Below the pieces are notes generated by a model. The model did no database searches. It had not been told where the DNA came from and saw only the letters and a program-made list of their open reading frames with translations. A stretch of 64,000 bases of DNA, taken from Methanococcoides sp. GTDB taxonomy: Archaea > Halobacteriota > Methanosarcinia > Methanosarcinales > Methanosarcinaceae. The first letter of the stretch is position 1; each line of letters begins with the position of its first letter. The translations under genes were made by a program, and so were the position numbers. Where the stretch lies: NCBI GenBank assembly GCA_021108275.1, contig JAIORD010000014.1, forward strand, positions 1-64,000, given 5' to 3'. Shown piece after piece: positions 11,428-32,963 of this stretch.

Positions 11428-12066
11428 TCACAGTGGATTCAGACTCAAATAAATTCCCCAGATCCCACTGGCGATCATAGTTACTGAAATTGCACCCAGG
11501 AACAAGCCAAACAATCTGGTAAGTACCAGCATTCCATTATATCCTATTTTTTTGTGTATTCTCCTGGAAAAGAGAAATGTTACCAGGGTTATTGAATAAG
11601 TTAGTACCAATGCGAGAATAATGAGTGGTTTTTGTTGAACAAATCCAGCGGTCTCTGTAAGAACTACGACTGTTGTTATGGTAGCAGGCCCTGTTAGTAT
11701 AGGCATTGCAATTGGGAAGATCCAGATATCGTCACGTTTAGAAGATTCATCCATCTCTTTATCAGTAATGCTTTCTCTTGAGATCTTAGCCTGCATCATT
11801 TCAAAAGCTATCATTATAAGTAACAGACCACCAGCAACTTTCATTGAATCAAGACTGATCCCAAGAACATCCAGGATAATGTTTCCCGCAAACATGAAAA
11901 ATACGGCAATGACAAAAGCTAAAGCAACCGATTTCTTTGCAATTACATTCTTTTCATCCAGGGTCAGACTATTGGTGAGCGTTATAAATGTAATTACTGC
12001 GGTAATTGGGCTCACAATGACGAACAATGTGATAAATGAAGAAATGAAATAACCCACAGGATCCAT
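11428..12066 (-). CDS. MarC-family membrane protein
   Basis: A 212-residue integral membrane protein with six hydrophobic segments, matching the MarC/UPF0056 family (start FISSFITLFVIVSPITAV, middle WIFPIAMPILTGPATITTVV). Bacterial MarC was once linked to multiple antibiotic resistance, but that role has not held up and no substrate is established. Single leftward gene, TGA stop. Confidence 0.88.
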   Translation of the reverse strand: MDPVGYFISSFITLFVIVSPITAVITFITLTNSLTLDEKNVIAKKSVALAFVIAVFFMFAGNIILDVLGISLDSMKVAGGLLLIMIAFEMMQAKISRESITDKEMDESSKRDDIWIFPIAMPILTGPATITTVVVLTETAGFVQQKPLIILALVLTYSITLVTFLFSRRIHKKIGYNGMLVLTRLFGLFLGAISVTMIASGIWGIYLSLNPL

Positions 12067-12403
12067 TGATTATTGTATGTTCACATTGCTTAAAAAATAT
12101 ACGGCTGTGATATTTTCTTGAGATGATTTTGGGTGTAAAATAGTACTTCCATTCAAATTTTTGAAAATTTAAAAGGAAATGGGAGTATTTTCTCTTCAGA
12201 TATCCACTAATGTTTTCAAGCGATCATTTCATTTTAATTTCGAATAATAGTTACAGGGAAGTCTAATGAATGCTCTTGTGTTTGACTTTTTAAAGAAAAT
12301 ACTATGTGTGGGATATTATTTATATTAAATAAGAACTATTAAGTTTTGGGGGATAATATTTTCGTGATGCTGGTAAATTTACTACGTTGTAGGGGAATGG
12401 GAT
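12067..12403. other. Divergent intergenic region
   Basis: 337 bases between divergent marC-like and kinase genes. It must hold both promoters; an AT-rich TATTTATATTAAATA at about 12319 is a likely TATA box for the kinase. Nothing else seen. Confidence 0.4.
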
Positions 12404-15488: not shown

Positions 15489-15621
15489 AAGTATATGTTG
15501 TCTTCATTCCCTATTTTATTTGATGAACGCACAATATATTCAATATTATGACGACTACTATATATAAGATTAATTTATTTATTTCCTGCTGTAATTATAA
15601 TCTTTTGAGAGATAATGAAAA

Positions 15622-17985
15622 ATGAATGGAATTGAAGATGTTATGAATAATTTATCTGCTGAAGGATCTTATAATATTCCAGCTGAATCGTTTAAAAATC
15701 CTGGGGTCTTAAATTCTATTTTTGAGAATCTTCCTCTTATTCTGATCCTTATCAATAAGGACGGCAGAGTTGAAAACATCAATCGAGCTACTTCCATTAC
15801 ATTAGGAAAGGAAAAAACAGATAGTATTGGTCTTCTTGGTGGTGAATTGTTTGGATGCATGAATTCGTTGAAAGATGAAGGGTGTGGGAAAAACAGAGAA
15901 TGCTCTGAATGTACTGTGCGAAACTCTGTAATGTACACTTTTGAGACAGGTGAGAACATTTACAAAAGGGAAGGTGAATTGGAAATAATTGCCAATGGCC
16001 GGTCTGTAACACTTCATCTTTTAATTTCAACGCTCCTGATAAAACAAAACAATGAACCAATGGTTTTGCTCACTGCTGATGATATTACAGAACAGAAGCT
16101 TGCTGAAAAGGCACTAAAAGAAAGCGAGATCAAGTATAAAGAGTTGGCTGATTCCTTGCCCCAAACGGTTTTTGAAACTGATCTACAAGGAAATCTCATA
16201 TTCGTCAACCGTTATTCATTTGACATGTTCGGTTACACGCAGGAAGACTTTTCCAAAGGTTCAAATATTTATCAGACACTGATTCCCGAGGATCTGTATA
16301 GGGCTAAACTGAATCTAGAGAAGGTCGTGCGTGGAGAAGATCAAGGGTCTAACGAATACACAGCTCTGAGAAAAGATGGCAGTACATTTCCTATCAGCAT
16401 ATATTCAAGCAGAATTGTTCATGATGACAGAACAATAGGCATTAGGGGAATACTTGTAGACATCACTGAACGCAAGCAAGCGGAAGAAATTCTACGCAAG
16501 AGTGAAGCCAGTTTGTCCAATGCACAGCGTATTTCCCATCTTGGTAATTGGGATTGGGACCTCGTCAAAAATAAGGTAAAATTATCTAACGAGATCTATA
16601 ACATCCTTGGGCTGGCACCCCCGAGATTTGAAACTACTTTTGAGTCATTTCTAAAGTACGTCCATCCTGATGACGAGTTGTTTGTTCAAGATAATATAAA
16701 TAAGGCAATATATGAACATAAACCGTATAGTATTGACTACCGCATTCTTTTGTCCGATAGCTCAGAACGTATTATTCATGCGCAAGGTGAGGTTACTTTT
16801 AACAAAGCTGGCCAGGCTATTTGGATGTCTGGGATAATGCAGGACATCACTGAGCGGAAGCAAATGGAGACTGCTTTACAAAAATCGGAACAGAAGTTTA
16901 GAACATTTTTTAATAATTCTAATGATCCAACTCTAATATACGATTTGGACGGGTTCATCCTGGAAGTGAACGAAGTTGCTTGTGAATTCACGGGTTATGG
17001 CAGAGATGAACTGCTGAATATGTCGATAATGGACCTGGATTCTTCTGAATATGCATCAAATATGCCTGATAATATCAAGCAATTACAAAAGGGAATGTGT
17101 TCCATATTTGAAAGTGTAGCTATTTGTAAAGATGGCACTACTATCCCCATAGAACTAAGCAATCGCATTATTGATTATGATGGCAAACCAGCTGTTCTCT
17201 CCACTTCTAGAGATCTCACAGAGCGGAAACAAGCAGAAGATGCAATGTTCCATGCAAAGCTTGTGGCAGAAGCTGCCAACCGTGCCAAATCTGAATTCCT
17301 TGCAAACATGAGCCATGAGCTACGCACGCCTCTTAATTCCATAATTGGCTTCTCACAGTTACTAAATAGTAATCCTTTCGGTAACCTGAATGAAAAGGAA
17401 ATTAATTATTCATACAATATTATGGACAGCGGGAAACACTTACTGAGTTTGATCAATGATATTCTTGAGATCTCAAAGATAGAAAGTGGGAAAATAGAAC
17501 TTGAATGTGAAAAGTTTAGTTTACCTTCCTTCATTTGTGATGCGGAAAATACAATCAAACATATGGCATATAATAAGAACATTGAAATTTGTAATCAGGT
17601 TCGTTCTAAAAGTATCGAAGTGTATGCTGATAAATTAAGGATGAAACAAATATTGTATAATCTATTAAGTAATTCCTTGAAGTTCACACCTGAAAATGGT
17701 TGTATATAGATCAATGCTGTTAATTGTGGTAATATGTTTGAGATATCTGTATCAGATAATGGTACTGGTATTCCCAAAAATAAACATGATGAAATATTTG
17801 AGACCTTCAAACAGGTGGATTCTACAATTGCCAGAAGTTATGGGGGAACTGGTCTTGGTCTTGCAATTGTCAAGAAATTTGTTGAAATGCATGGTGGCGA
17901 GATCAGGGTTGAGAGTGAAGTTGGAAAGGGAAGTACGTTCACATTCACAATTCCTATTGATTCCGATACACTTCTTTTTAATTGA
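15622..17985 (+). CDS. Multi-PAS histidine kinase with in-frame UAG at codon 696
   Basis: Read through a TAG at 17707-17709, this is a 787-residue kinase: a Cys-containing PAS (about residues 25-155), three further PAS domains (about 170-295, 300-415 and 420-545), HisKA with [12 protein letters not shown] (His near 565), and a HATPase. The N box (LLSNSLKF) lies before the TAG; DNGTGI and GGTGLGLAI lie after it, in the same frame, with no other disruption. Aligned to the kinase at 12404, the TAG falls opposite a Lys codon. If the TAG is a true stop the ATPase is destroyed. Pyrrolysine insertion, or a young nonsense mutation, are the alternatives. Confidence 0.82.
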
Positions 17986-22448: not shown

Positions 22449-23324
22449 TTATAACTCTTCTCCCAGCCATTCGTTTACCTTTTCAGGATTGTTCTCTATC
22501 CATTTTGCTGCTGCATCCTCAGGAGCCATTCCATTCTCCATATCACTCATCACTGACTGTATATCTTCATGGGTCCAGTGGAATCTTGTAAGTACATCAT
22601 AGACCTCTGGCATATCTTCTTCAAGACCTGTACGAGCAAGGGTCTCTACATTATCTGCCTGGCCAAAGGCTCCTTCTGGATCATCAAGGTACTTCAAGTC
22701 CCAGCGATCAAATGACCAATGTGGTGACCAGAGTGTAACAACGATGGGTTCTTCATCATCAATAGCTTTGCGAAGCTGTGCGGTCATGCCTGCGGTACTG
22801 CTTGAGACCATTTTGTAATCCATACCATAGGCTTCGATAGCATTTTCGGTGTTCTGCATGATACCTGCTCCAGGATCGATGCCGATAATCTCTCCATCAA
22901 ACATTTCTTTGTTGTCGTTGAGTTCTGCTATGGAGTCTATCTCTACATATGCTGGTACAACAAGTCCCAGAGGTGTGTTCTCAAGGTTTTTTCTGACACT
23001 GACCAACTGATCTCCATACTGATTCCAGTAGTTTTCCTGAGTTACAGGTAACCATGCGGATGTTGTGAAATCGAAATCTCCCTGTGCGACTCCCAGGTAA
23101 AGGGCGCCTGCATCCACTGCAATGATCTCAACATCATAGCCCTTTTTCTCAAGAACCTGCTCGATCACATTCGTGCTTGCTATTTCGCCGTCCCATAGAA
23201 CATATCCTACAGTTACTTCCTTTGATTCTGTGTCAGTTCCATCTTCCTGCTGGACACATCCTGCACCAACAAGGCTTATTGCAATCAGCAATACCAGCAA
23301 TAACGATTTTATTTTTCCATTCAT
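22449..23324 (-). CDS. Glycine betaine/proline-type substrate-binding lipoprotein
   Basis: A 291-residue OpuAC/ProX-family binding protein with signal peptide and lipobox (LVGAGC near residue 22). It captures glycine betaine or a related compatible solute outside the membrane and hands it to the permease. The ligand-box aromatic residues of this family are plausible in SAWLPVTQENYWNQY and LWSPHWSFDRWDLKYL. It is the third gene of a leftward operon after the ATPase and permease. A small hairpin (TGCGG...CCGCA near 23366) lies in the 79-base gap before it. Confidence 0.92.
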   Translation of the reverse strand: MNGKIKSLLLVLLIAISLVGAGCVQQEDGTDTESKEVTVGYVLWDGEIASTNVIEQVLEKKGYDVEIIAVDAGALYLGVAQGDFDFTTSAWLPVTQENYWNQYGDQLVSVRKNLENTPLGLVVPAYVEIDSIAELNDNKEMFDGEIIGIDPGAGIMQNTENAIEAYGMDYKMVSSSTAGMTAQLRKAIDDEEPIVVTLWSPHWSFDRWDLKYLDDPEGAFGQADNVETLARTGLEEDMPEVYDVLTRFHWTHEDIQSVMSDMENGMAPEDAAAKWIENNPEKVNEWLGEEL

Positions 23325-23403: not shown

Positions 23404-24234
23404 TTATTTTGGTGTAAGATGCTGCGTGAACCTGTCTAGTATGATCGCTATGATCACAATTCCAAGTCCTGCTTCAAATCCCTGGCCTATATCTACCCTC
23501 TGAATTCCGATGAGTACCTGATATCCCAGACCTCTTGCACCGATCATGGCAGCTATTACAACCATTGAAAGGGAAAGCATTATGCACTGATTTACACCGG
23601 CCATTATGCTTGGCAGAGCAGTTGGCAGTTCCACCTTGGTCAGTTTCTGCCAGGGTGTTGATCCAAATGCATCTGCGACCTCGGTAAGTTCCTTTGGCAC
23701 CTGCTGAATTCCCAAGGTGGTAAGTCTGATCGCAGGGGGCATTGCAAAAACGATCGTTGCAACAAGTCCCGGAACATTTCCAAGCCCGAAGAATATGACT
23801 GCAGGGATAAGATAAACGAACGATGGCATTGTCTGCATCAGGTCAAGCAGAGGCTTGATAACGTGGTATGCAAATTCATTCTTTGCTGAAATTATTCCCA
23901 ATGGTATTGCGATAATTAATGCAAGGGATGCCGATGTGAGTACAAGGGAAATAGTCTCCATGGATAGTACCCATAGTCCCATGTTCTCTATCAGAAGCAG
24001 GCCAACCGTACTGCCGATCGCAAGTTTTAGGTCCTTCCTGCCGATGAAATATGCAGCTATGCCAATGATCAATGCAAATACAATGGGAGGAAACAAGAGC
24101 AGGGTATCATTAAGGCCGGATATTATGTAATCCGTTACATCACTGAATATATCCAGCAGTATTCCAAAATCATCTTCGATCCAATTGACTACTTTTTCCA
24201 CACCTTCGCCTATCGGTATTTTTGGTATAACCAT
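23404..24234 (-). CDS. Glycine betaine ABC transporter permease (ProW/OpuAB-like)
   Basis: A 276-residue inner-membrane permease with a soluble N-terminal stretch and about six helices. The EAA loop region is PKELTEVADAFGSTPWQKLTKVELPTALP-like, here in the segment around residue 180. It forms the channel for the substrate delivered by the binding protein at 22449. It begins three bases after the ATPase stop, so it is translated with it. Confidence 0.93.
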   Translation of the reverse strand: MVIPKIPIGEGVEKVVNWIEDDFGILLDIFSDVTDYIISGLNDTLLLFPPIVFALIIGIAAYFIGRKDLKLAIGSTVGLLLIENMGLWVLSMETISLVLTSASLALIIAIPLGIISAKNEFAYHVIKPLLDLMQTMPSFVYLIPAVIFFGLGNVPGLVATIVFAMPPAIRLTTLGIQQVPKELTEVADAFGSTPWQKLTKVELPTALPSIMAGVNQCIMLSLSMVVIAAMIGARGLGYQVLIGIQRVDIGQGFEAGLGIVIIAIILDRFTQHLTPK

Positions 24235-24237
24235 TGA

Positions 24238-25446
24238 TCACACCTCCTCGATCGCAAGTGCACCAAGTACACTGCCCCTTACAATTACTCCAAGGAGTTT
24301 TCCATCATCCTTTGTAACTGCAATTGGTGAACTGTTTTCTATTGTCGGTATAAGCTCGTTCAAAGGTGTATCTAAGTGGGTGACTGTGACATCTTCTGTC
24401 ATGACATCCTTTATGGTCTTCCCAGCCTTTGAACCACTTACTGCATCATCAACTGAAATAATACCTTTCAGATGTTTCTCCCTGTTTACGACGAATATGG
24501 ATGATATGCCATGTTCTCTCATCAACTGAAGGGCTACCTTTGGACTGGAGTTCATTGATACCACGGGATCGGCACGTTTCATGACCGTTTCTGCAGTGAG
24601 TATCTTTGTCCTGTCCACACCTGCCACGAACTTAGACACATAATCGTCTGCAGGCTCTGTAAGGATATTTTCCGCAGTGCCGATCTGAGCGATCTTTCCA
24701 TCATGCATGATCATGATCCTATCGCCCAGTTTTAGGGCCTCATCGAGATCATGGGATACGAAAACGATAGTTTTCTGCATCTTCTCTTCCAGTGCGAGCA
24801 ATTCGTCCTGCATCTCGCTTCGTATAAGAGGATCAAGAGCACTGAAGGCTTCATCCATCAGCAGGATGTCTGGATCAGTTGCAAGAGCCCTTGCAAGTCC
24901 GACCCTCTGCTGCATTCCTCCACTTAGCTGGGATGTTTTGCTATCTTCATAGCCTTTAAGGCCAACTGTTTCGATAGCTTCCTTTCCTTTAACATCTCTT
25001 TCTTCCTTTGATATACCTTGTATCTCAAGGCCGTATGCAACGTTATCAAGGACAGTTCTATGGGGAATGAGTGCAAAATTCTGAAATACCATACCCATTT
25101 TTTTCCTGCGTATCTCTCGCAGTTCCTCAGAATCTGCTGTGGCCACATCCTCACCATCGAGAATTATGTTTCCGGCAGTTGGTTCTATAAGGCGGTTTAT
25201 ACATCGCAAAAGAGTGGATTTTCCTGAGCCGGAAAGGCCCATTATCACAAAGATCTCGCCTTCGTATATATCAAAATTGACGTTGTAAAGTCCAACGTTC
25301 TGTCCCGTCCTTTCAAAAATTTCACTTTTTGAGGATCCGGCTTCGATAAGAGAAAATGCTTTCTTGGGTTTTTTCCCAAAAATTTTAGTTAGGTTTCGTA
25401 CTTCAATTTTTTTTTCCTACTTAATATTAAAATCTCCAGTTAACAT
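24238..25446 (-). CDS. Glycine betaine ABC ATPase with CBS domains, in-frame UAG near start
   Basis: ATP-binding subunit of the ProV/OpuAA type: Walker A GLSGSGKST, signature LSGGMQQRVGLARAL, Walker B ILLMDEAFSALDP, then two CBS domains that sense ionic strength in this family. A Met at 25248 would delete the strand before Walker A and about 55 conserved residues (IEVRNLTKIFG to YEGEIFVI). The open frame upstream has no ATG, GTG or TTG until ATG at 25444-25446, and TAG at 25417-25419 (codon 10) interrupts it. So the gene uses either readthrough of UAG or a rare ATT start (25405-25407, preceded by AGGAAA). First gene of the operon. Confidence 0.85.
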
Positions 25447-25831
25447 TGGATACTAGCCCAACGCTGGGTAAAACAGATTTTAGGTTTAAATTAGAGTAGC
25501 TCTAATCAGTGAAACCATGTGTTATAATATTTGTGGCTTAATAGAGGCCTAATTATTCTCTCTGAAATTCAATTTCATGTTGTAGCAAACGATTCTTTTA
25601 TCACAATGACATGTTCGAACCATAACTATATCACAACATCATGAATCCCATTATCTGTTCATCGTCTGCTGCTGCAAGAATTCAATAATTATATAAATAT
25701 TTAATAACAATAAGTCCCTTGTATATGTTTGTACCAGATACACAACTTGATGGACGAAGACACGTGGTCATTATCTGCAATTAATGATAATAAAGCGAGA
25801 TCCACTCCGTTCTATATGGTAAAGGGATGAA
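25447..25831. other. Divergent intergenic region
   Basis: 385 AT-rich bases between the betaine operon and a rightward gene, with several AT runs that could be TATA boxes on either strand (for example TTATATAAATATTTAATA near 25690). No ORF, repeat or hairpin that I can support. Confidence 0.4.
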
Positions 25832-28046: not shown

Positions 28047-28280
28047 TTACTGATCAGCAAGTCTGTTATTTCCAAAGAATTTGAAGGCCATGACTCCAAA
28101 TATAGTGGTTATAATGAGAAAAAGAACTCTTTCTGCGATTGAAAATGGTGTAAAGTTCGTTAAGAGCGTACCGGTTACCAAAGTGTTGTGAATTTCTGCG
28201 AATATGCCCAAAGCAAAGTAAGACAATATTATAGTTCCAAATATAGAATATTCTATTTTCATGTATGGTACCCCCATCAA
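28047..28280 (-). CDS. Small membrane protein (77 aa)
   Basis: Two hydrophobic helices (IFGTIILSYFALGIFAE and VLFLIITTIFGVMAFKFF) joined by a short loop. The start may be the second Met (MKIEYS, 28262). No family recognised; TAA stop 27 bases from the end of the convergent gene. Confidence 0.5.
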   Translation of the reverse strand: MMGVPYMKIEYSIFGTIILSYFALGIFAEIHNTLVTGTLLTNFTPFSIAERVLFLIITTIFGVMAFKFFGNNRLADQ

Positions 28281-28677
28281 TAAATTGACAATTTTAAGTC
28301 TATATTATCCAATTGATAACTTCAACATGCCATTTAACAGTCCATAAAATTTGCCTAATGCATTATAAACATTTCGATTTCATATTATTCAATATTTCCT
28401 GAAATTATGATCAGTTAAAAAAATTAATAACTTTTGATCTTGAAAAATAATGCATAGATCTTATCGAACGCAATTTTACGCTGTTAACAATTACTCAAAA
28501 CCTTTATGTTGAATGTGTTTTAAGTCTAAACTGTAATTAATATCGATAGACGTAAGTATTAGACATGTATTCTGATTTGCAATACGGTCTACATTTATTA
28601 TCTGGTAACAGTCTACGAAGTCTGGAATTCTTGTACTTCAATATTAAAGAGTTCTCTTCAAAACGATCGGAGGAAAT
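28281..28677. other. Long leader before sufC with hairpin
   Basis: 397 bases without a gene. Between 28548 and 28597, TAGAC and GTATT pair with AATAC and GTCTA across a small internal loop, a possible structured leader of the suf transcript. GAGGAAATATG-like site (CGGAGGAAAT) is directly before sufC. Otherwise AT-rich. Confidence 0.35.
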
Positions 28678-29427
28678 ATGCTCGAGATAAAAGATCTTAC
28701 AGTAGAGATTGGCGGAAGGAAAATCCTTAACAAGGTCAATCTCAAAGTGGAACAGGGCAGCACGACTGTCCTTTTTGGTCCAAATGGTGCTGGCAAATCT
28801 GCTCTTCTCATGACGCTTATGGGATTTAGTGGTTATGATATTGTGAGTGGGCAGATATTGTTCAAGGGAGAGGATATCACCCATCTTTCAGTGAATGAAA
28901 GGGCTGAGCGTGGTCTTGGGATCATGACACAGAGGCCACCAAACCTTACCGGTGTCAAACTTAAGGATCTGGTCAAGGTAATAAGTAATGACCATAGCTT
29001 CGATACAGATGCTGCTTCTAAGAAGCTGGATATGGAACGCTTCATGGACCGGGATGTGAATGTCGGTTTTTCCGGTGGTGAGATAAAAAGGTCTGAACTG
29101 TTGCAGCTTTCCGCACAGAACCCATGCCTTTACTTGCTCGATGAACCGGAATCAGGTGTAGATCTTGTGAGCATAGAAGAGATCGGTACGACCATCGATG
29201 AGTTGCTCTCAAGCAGATCGAAATGTTCCGTGGACCATTACAAGAGAGGTAATTCTGCACTTATTATAACACATACAGGTCAGGTTCTCGATTACGTTGA
29301 ACCGGACGTGGGATACATACTCTGCAATGGTGTTGTCATGTGCAGGGGCAACCCGCGTGAAATGCTTAAGGAAATAAAAGCACATGGATATCAGGAGTGT
29401 ATAAAATGCAAACAGGCAATTCTCTAA
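28678..29427 (+). CDS. sufC: SufC-like Fe-S assembly ATPase
   Basis: A 249-residue ABC-type ATPase that powers Fe-S cluster assembly on the SufB partner. Seen: Walker A GPNGAGKSAL, signature FSGGEIKRSELLQL, Walker B LYLLDEPESGVD. GGAGG precedes the start. It overlaps the next gene by 31 bases, so the two are translationally coupled. The two-gene SufCB set is the usual minimal archaeal SUF system. Confidence 0.94.
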   Translation: MLEIKDLTVEIGGRKILNKVNLKVEQGSTTVLFGPNGAGKSALLMTLMGFSGYDIVSGQILFKGEDITHLSVNERAERGLGIMTQRPPNLTGVKLKDLVKVISNDHSFDTDAASKKLDMERFMDRDVNVGFSGGEIKRSELLQLSAQNPCLYLLDEPESGVDLVSIEEIGTTIDELLSSRSKCSVDHYKRGNSALIITHTGQVLDYVEPDVGYILCNGVVMCRGNPREMLKEIKAHGYQECIKCKQAIL

Positions 29428-31754: not shown

Positions 31755-31820
31755 TTCCCTTTCAATCCATTTTATTTTCGTTTATATTTATTTTTTAATC
31801 GCTGAAAACAGCTTTTCAAT

Positions 31821-32963
31821 GTGAGATCTATTATGGCATCCAAAAGGTTATTCGACAAGATCGATTCGATACAGCTTCTCAGTGTAACGAAGAAATATGA
31901 TGACAGGTTTGCTATCAATGATATCTCTATTGATATTGAAGGTGGAGAGCTGGTAATTTTCATAGGACCCAGTGGGTCGGGAAAGACCACAACGCTCCGT
32001 ATGATCAACCGTTTGATAGAACCAGATTCAGGGACCATTCTCATCAATGACCAGAATGTCATGGAACTTGAACCGGTCGCTCTTCGCAGGAATATTGGTT
32101 ATGTCATACAGAATATCGGTCTTTTCCCTCACATGAACATTGCTGAGAACATCGGTCTCGTGGCCAAACTGGAAGGCTGGGATGAGAAAAAGATCAAAGA
32201 CAGAGTGGAATATCTCCTTGATTTTGTTTCCCTTCCGTCGGAGATGTTCATGGATAGGTATCCTCATCAACTAAGCGGTGGACAGCAGCAGAGAGTTGGT
32301 CTTGCAAGGGCTCTCATGATGGACCCTCCCCTTCTGCTCATGGATGAGCCCTTCGGTGCACTTGACCCGATCTTAAGAAAACAACTTCAGGAAGAGTTCT
32401 ACCAGATCAGAGAAAAACTGGGTAAGACCATAATATTCGTGACACATGATATCGAAGAAGCTTTCAAGCTCGGTGACAGGATCGCTATAATGGATGATGC
32501 TAAACTTGTTCAGATAGGCACAGCAGAAGAATTGATCTTCCACCCTGCAAACGAGATGGTTGCAAGCATTGTGGATACCAGTAAGAAGTTCAAGCACCTT
32601 GATACATTGAAAATAAAGGACCTTATATCTCCTCTTGAGTGCATGTATGTCCACGATGGGTCCCTTGATGTTGAGGGTGCTATCAGTTCCATGATAGAGA
32701 AGAACATAGAGATCGCTGTGGTATCCAATGGTTCAGGCCCGCTTGGTATTGTAAAGCTTATAGATCTACTGCGTATGGATGACAAGGAAAGCAAGATCGT
32801 TGATCATGTTATTGAAATTCCTTCATTTTCCAGAAATGAACTGCTTTCATCCTCACTGAAAATAATGCAAAAGGATGGACATTCAATGGCCTTTGTCATG
32901 ACCGATGGAAAACTAAGCGGGTTCCTGTTTCCAAATGATGCTTTCAGTCAGGTAATTGGATAA
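31821..32963 (+). CDS. Osmoprotectant ABC transporter ATPase (OpuCA-like)
   Basis: A 380-residue ATPase subunit: Walker A GPSGSGKTTTL, signature LSGGQQQRVGLARAL, Walker B LLLMDEPFGALDP, and C-terminal CBS-like repeats. It energises uptake of betaine, choline or carnitine-type solutes. It follows the frameshifted binding-protein gene by 66 bases and precedes two permease genes, the standard four-gene OpuC order. Confidence 0.92.
   Translation: MRSIMASKRLFDKIDSIQLLSVTKKYDDRFAINDISIDIEGGELVIFIGPSGSGKTTTLRMINRLIEPDSGTILINDQNVMELEPVALRRNIGYVIQNIGLFPHMNIAENIGLVAKLEGWDEKKIKDRVEYLLDFVSLPSEMFMDRYPHQLSGGQQQRVGLARALMMDPPLLLMDEPFGALDPILRKQLQEEFYQIREKLGKTIIFVTHDIEEAFKLGDRIAIMDDAKLVQIGTAEELIFHPANEMVASIVDTSKKFKHLDTLKIKDLISPLECMYVHDGSLDVEGAISSMIEKNIEIAVVSNGSGPLGIVKLIDLLRMDDKESKIVDHVIEIPSFSRNELLSSSLKIMQKDGHSMAFVMTDGKLSGFLFPNDAFSQVIG

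Follow-up and report, generated by a model that had tools for sequence, protein, structure and literature searches.

Where does translation of a gene begin if its conserved N-terminus follows an in-frame TAG and is preceded by none of the usual start codons? This question is raised by proV, the gene for the ATPase of an ABC transporter for the salt protectant betaine, in a stretch of 64,000 nucleotides from the marine methanogen Methanococcoides sp. (assembly GCA_021108275.1, contig JAIORD010000014.1, positions 1 to 64,000), which was analyzed as a whole and is called the window. A first-pass annotation of this DNA had stated that a normal start is missing from the conserved N-terminal part of proV. 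This is borne out by the sequence, in which no ATG, GTG, or TTG follows the in-frame TAG until GTG 25248-25246, the 57th codon past the TAG; the next one, ATG 25242-25240, directly precedes the Walker A motif. With a probability of roughly 80%, judged from comparison of sequences, translation starts at an AUU codon at 25425-25423, 8 nt past the Shine-Dalgarno (SD) core GGAG. Because this codon lies 5' of the TAG, the UAG would be codon 3 and would have to be decoded, in all likelihood as pyrrolysine (Pyl). On the minus strand, the order is ATG 25446-25444, TTA ACT GGA GAT TTT AAT, ATT 25425-25423, AAG, TAG 25419-25417, GAA AAA AAA, ATT 25407-25405, GAA GTA, and the following elements are to be distinguished:

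24238..25425, minus strand: proV/opuAA-type betaine ABC transporter ATPase, with the proposed AUU start at 25425-25423 and the stop codon TGA
25434..25437, minus strand: SD core GGAG, 8 nt 5' of the ATT
25423..25425, minus strand: proposed AUU start codon (ATT), at an SD-aligned spacing of 7; ATT or ATC in 11/11 Methanococcoides genomes and the site of the ATG, GTG, or TTG starts of other genera
25417..25419, minus strand: in-frame TAG, which would be the third codon of the gene and is probably decoded as Pyl
25405..25407, minus strand: ATT named in the first-pass annotation, an internal Ile codon if AUU 25425-25423 is the start; 26 nt past GGAG
25444..25446, minus strand: upstream in-frame ATG, probably not a start, located in the 3' arm if the leader hairpin forms
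25442..25465, minus strand: possible 9-bp leader hairpin, weak, ending 4 nt before GGAG

The first-pass annotation gave only ATT 25405 and ATG 25444 as upstream in-frame candidates and passed over ATT 25425-25423. Its alternatives, a UAG that is read through or a non-standard start codon, are both suggested by the comparison, with the start placed 5' of the TAG and not at ATT 25405.

The N-terminus encoded before GTG 25248 is real protein under coding selection, as judged from its pattern of substitutions. Among 11 Methanococcoides genomes, the ratio of nonsynonymous to synonymous substitution rates (dN/dS) is 0.114 for codons 4-56 versus 0.088 for codons 60-150. Variable sites in codons 4-56 are distributed over the three codon positions as 12, 9, and 33 (33/54 at the third position), and the pattern of coding selection vanishes in the other two frames. 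Furthermore, residue 3 of the ATPase is aligned with residue 4 of the solved betaine-transporter ATPases 7ahc and 7ahd. An internal start at GTG 25248 was rejected, as it would drop this conserved and selected N-terminus. For comparison, 26 open reading frames of the window were matched in the stretches of the congener G002. In 22 of the others, a canonical start is found at most 18 codons past the upstream stop, compared with 56 codons in proV; three small matched frames without a canonical start (11969-12223, 28066-28293, and 28563-28730) look non-coding. Similarly, in 74 of the 76 readable relatives from outside the genus (77 in total), a canonical codon lies at most 15 codons before the conserved Ile/Leu codon that served as anchor (ATT 25407-25405 here); in L070 and L073, that canonical codon may not be the start.

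The choice of AUU 25425-25423 rests on a comparison across the Methanosarcinaceae. Matches at 1e-120 were found in 67 of 111 family genomes; one of them (G024) was dropped because its 5' end is missing and G030 was added, resulting in a set of 67 orthologues from genera numbered g1 to g14. In all 26 genomes of g2, g5, g6, g7, and g11, a canonical start is located either 6 codons (24 genomes) or 8 codons (2 genomes, g5) before the anchor. In the 41 genomes of g1, g4, g8, g13, and g14, the start site is occupied by ATT, ATC, or ATA (together AUH), which is out of frame in G075. No ATG, GTG, or TTG is found from the in-frame stop to the anchor in 31 of these 41 genomes if TAG is counted as a stop, and in 27 of 37 if the three TAG-bearing genomes (G000, G001, and G002) and G075 are left aside. 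This in-frame stop is a TGA located 8-9 codons before the anchor in 19 of 21 g4 genomes. Within Methanococcoides, the block ACTGGAGATTTTARTAT(T/C) is identical in 11/11 genomes, and the start-site codon, in frame and 8 bases past GGAG, is ATT in six and ATC in five of them. The anti-SD sequence GGATCACCTCCT is present at the 16S 3' end in two congeners, and a search for the 16S gene in the organism's own draft assembly did not find it. Among the 36 scored rows of the AUU-type genera, 30 have AUH at an SD-aligned spacing of 7. This spacing is mostly that of canonical starts, too, with 13 of the 24 rows from other genera having theirs at 7 or 8; by the rule used, the SD of 11 other canonical rows (all g7) and of five g8 rows was unscored. 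Altogether, the site of proV shows no canonical codon, an SD-spaced AUU-type codon, and conservation of this codon in relatives, with 10 of the 41 genomes keeping another possible start. The AUU start is favored because its site matches the AUG, GUG, and UUG starts of other genera and because a canonical start is absent from most genomes of the AUU group.

In a tree of 60 rows, the AUH rows form one side of one branch (support 91/88), which corresponds to one change of start type compared with a mean of 19.0 for shuffled labels, and one change is also found in 88% of the bootstrap trees. The start labels were set by hand, with G081 and G075 grouped with AUU; labeling G081 as canonical would add one change. 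Seven genomes (G030, G051, G100, G101, G102, G107, and G109) were added after the tree had been made. The tree was rooted at its midpoint, so that the direction of change is not given by the tree itself; the canonical starts seen in bacterial relatives point to the AUU type as the derived state.

The UAG at codon 3 need not be an obstacle, because pylS, tRNA-Pyl, and the TAG codons inside mtmB and a kinase gene show that the genus decodes UAG. The gene pylS is present in 11/11 Methanococcoides genomes, a tRNA-Pyl with the anticodon cta (CUA) is encoded near the organism's own pylS, and one TAG is located inside each of two of its four MtmB matches. An independent sign of sense UAG is found within the window:

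15619..17985, plus strand: PAS histidine kinase with an in-frame TAG at 17707-17709 inside the HATPase_c domain

The HATPase_c domain of this kinase scores 87.2 bits if only the sequence past the TAG is used and 111.1 bits when the TAG is read through. Of 20 homologues from across the genus (L212-L231), which were picked for carrying a TAG, 19 share its alignment column, and three homologues without TAG have Thr in this column. It is a probable conserved Pyl site in a kinase family. Conserved coding sequence is found on both sides of the TAG in the kinase gene; in proV it is found after the TAG, which in the favored reading is preceded by just AUU-AAG. TAG-bearing genes are under purifying selection, with dS values of 0.18-0.20 and dN values of 0.002-0.027 between G000 and G001. 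On these grounds UAG is decoded in the genus, and the UAG in proV is probably read as Pyl. The codon is TAG in G000, G001, and G002, CAG in G007, and TCG in G008. Pyl at this position is probably neutral, because the codon lies in a variable, lysine-rich tail. The use of the amber codon itself as initiator was rejected, as it would need a changed initiator tRNA, for which no search was made. A 2025 report in Science is said to describe certain archaea that read every TAG as Pyl.

Two further observations concern TAG codons in proV orthologues. In G007, the leader and the N-terminal part of proV are partly duplicated (L006, around position 714; open frame of 80 aa) 5' of the intact gene; the position of the CAG of the intact gene is occupied by TAG in this partial copy. 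The intact gene was used for the family start-codon and hairpin comparisons. In G109 (L203, g7), the proV reading frame contains a TAG at the position of query residue 18 (FGKNS-TAG-KVLS).

Several points weigh against a start at AUU. The ten AUH genomes with another possible start retain a canonical codon in an open frame and could start there, G030 and G059 have an ATG three codons before the anchor, and in G081 an ATG is found at an SD-aligned spacing of 4, three bases before the AUU-type codon. The restriction of the third base to T, C, or A would be equally expected if the codon simply encoded Ile. For five of the six g8 rows, the position of the ATT was assigned by visual inspection, the SD there (GGGG) being unscored. 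The SD match in Methanococcoides comprises only the four bases GGAG, and the site in G075 is out of frame owing to a run of 11 A. The other seven of the ten genomes have an upstream ATG in an open frame; these are six Methanococcoides genomes (G004, G006, G007, G008, G009, and G010) and G095.

The last point leads to the strongest, albeit unlikely, alternative, in which translation starts at ATG 25446-25444 and UAG is codon 10, decoded as Pyl, resulting in MLTGDFNIK-Pyl-EKKIEV. This ATG is in frame in 11/11 Methanococcoides genomes and, in the six just named, open into the gene without recoding; UAG is a sense codon in the organism under study, and if it is read in proV the frame is open here, too, which counts against the AUU start. 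However, a TAA directly after this ATG excludes it as the start in G003 and G005, the 30 bases before it contain no 4-base match to the SD, and among 30 genomes of the other AUU genera, just G095 has an in-frame ATG far upstream. In addition, its bases fit the arm of the leader hairpin, in which 9/9 pairs are formed in nine genomes and 8/9 in two, with only one pair changed on both sides; the single-sequence fold of this hairpin is weak (z -1.32).

A start at ATT 25407-25405, after the TAG and perhaps on a leaderless or internal transcript, is very improbable. It would leave no stop to be read, the codon is kept in 11/11 Methanococcoides genomes, and about 16% of the transcripts of Methanolobus psychrophilus were leaderless (PMC5378194). 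Yet in many relatives the corresponding codon is ATA, CTT, or another one, encoding a conserved Ile/Leu, four residues precede the encoded residue in the solved homologues, and its distance from GGAG is too large for that SD. Least probable of all is a silent or decaying proV in the TAG-bearing species or an error in the sequence, to which a missing canonical start and a TAG among the first codons might point, as G000, G001, and G002, all of this genus, have identical bases here, so that the ATG which the first-pass annotation thought resequencing might show is not expected, dN is far below dS between TAG-bearing genomes, and the proW- and proX-like genes are intact.

Entry by frameshift from another frame was also rejected; a hint in the sequence is found in G075 alone (L133), where the long A-run more likely reflects an assembly error or slippage. 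As a separate observation, proV of G051 (L204) is split over two frames near residue 105.

If translation starts at AUU 25425-25423, the SD would hold the mRNA while the initiator Met-tRNA recognizes the codon by base pairing at its first two positions. The mismatch at the third base would result in a low yield and throttled translation of the first gene of the operon, as reported for infC and pcnB, and the ordinary cellular Pyl system would read the UAG at codon 3 in this species and two close ones. The SD-spaced codon is AUU, AUC, or AUA in all 41 genomes and never has G as its third base, although AUG is one base change away. This absence may fit selection for a weak start; a coding Ile would fit as well. 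Rather tentatively, the weak start could be kept because it throttles translation or acts as a sensor, for example through aIF1 stringency and intracellular ionic strength, and so sets betaine uptake, with an ACG start in Rubrobacterales as a second, independent case. aIF1 is present in 11/11 congeners, and this factor favors discrimination against non-canonical starts in Sulfolobus (PMC6237735).

Among proV loci of Rubrobacterales metagenome-assembled genomes, L066, L068, and L070 have an ACG six bases past an SD-like AAGGGG or AAGGAG (3/3), which is perhaps another non-AUG start. L066 and L068 are without a canonical start in the scanned stretch, and L070 has other candidates.

The assignment of the gene as proV is based on a score of 455.6 bits against TIGR01186 (cut-off 326.6) and on the ProV/OpuAA architecture of an ABC_tran domain (PF00005) followed by C-terminal CBS domains (PF00571, two stretches). 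Its structural relatives in the PDB are the two betaine-transporter ATPases mentioned above, and its named relatives are the proteins of M. alaskense (96%), M. seepicolus (96%), and M. vulcani (88%). proV is the first gene of a minus-strand proV-proW-proX-like operon, to which the following features belong:

23404..24234, minus strand: proW-like permease with ATG start; best family scores below the equivalog cut-offs
22449..23324, minus strand: proX-like substrate-binding protein with ATG start; family scores below the cut-offs
25522..25532, minus strand: TATA-like AAATATTATAA, possibly the operon promoter

A block similar to the TATA-like element is found in the aligned upstream regions; for G007, the partial second proV copy was used in this alignment, the true G007 upstream region being absent. 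A second ProV-like ATPase is encoded at 31806-32963 on the plus strand (TIGR01186, 326.5 bits versus the cut-off of 326.6). A stretch of 136 bases 5' of proV (25663-25798) is repeated about 46 kb away (G000:C7:71966-72101) with 84% identity.

Start codons of this kind have precedents in bacteria. In Escherichia coli, an AUU start regulates infC, the gene for IF3 (PMC1780047, citing Butler 1987). In contrast to infC, proV encodes an archaeal transporter ATPase and not an initiation factor, and the third base varies between T, C, and A across the group; feedback of the infC type is not expected, because the product is a transporter ATPase. Another case is pcnB, an ordinary E. coli gene whose expression is lowered by an AUU start (PMC1780047, where the text prints pncB and the reference title pcnB), whereas the AUU-type start proposed here spans five archaeal genera. 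For archaea, an ATT start has been proposed for the tubulin AtubA in a genome of the Kariarchaeaceae (Asgard; PMC13394414). There, too, an alignment indicated that the N-terminus of an archaeal protein becomes complete if translation starts at an ATT farther upstream, which has a plausible ribosome-binding site, but the passages considered concern one gene of one operon, as opposed to 41 genomes and a tree here. AUU starts are extremely rare: when 36 genome triplets were surveyed, a switch to AUU was counted for 1 of 61,358 ancestral AUG starts and for 1 of 5,080 ancestral GUG starts (PMC5622118).

Within the family, the proV orthologues of g7 have their start at the same place, but as ATG (11) or GTG (3) in 14/14 g7 tree rows. 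g7 is probably Methanosarcina, and its proV system is presumably the one called Ota. With respect to Pyl, the organism resembles other methylotrophic methanogens in having pylS, tRNA-Pyl, and TAG inside mtmB; the difference is that UAG would be the third codon of a transport gene.

In the literature searched, which comprised titles and the beginnings of abstracts, with most full texts unopened, no AUU start was described for a betaine transporter or for a methanogen. Bacteria are known to use AUU starts, and a single archaeal tubulin gene has been suggested to do so; an AUU-type start that appears to be kept across five archaeal genera would be new. Gene-finding programs will assign such genes a wrong start or shorten them, more so where TAG is a sense codon. 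If true, the start of proV would be a natural test of how initiation in archaea copes with a mismatch at the third base and of whether such a mismatch is used in control.
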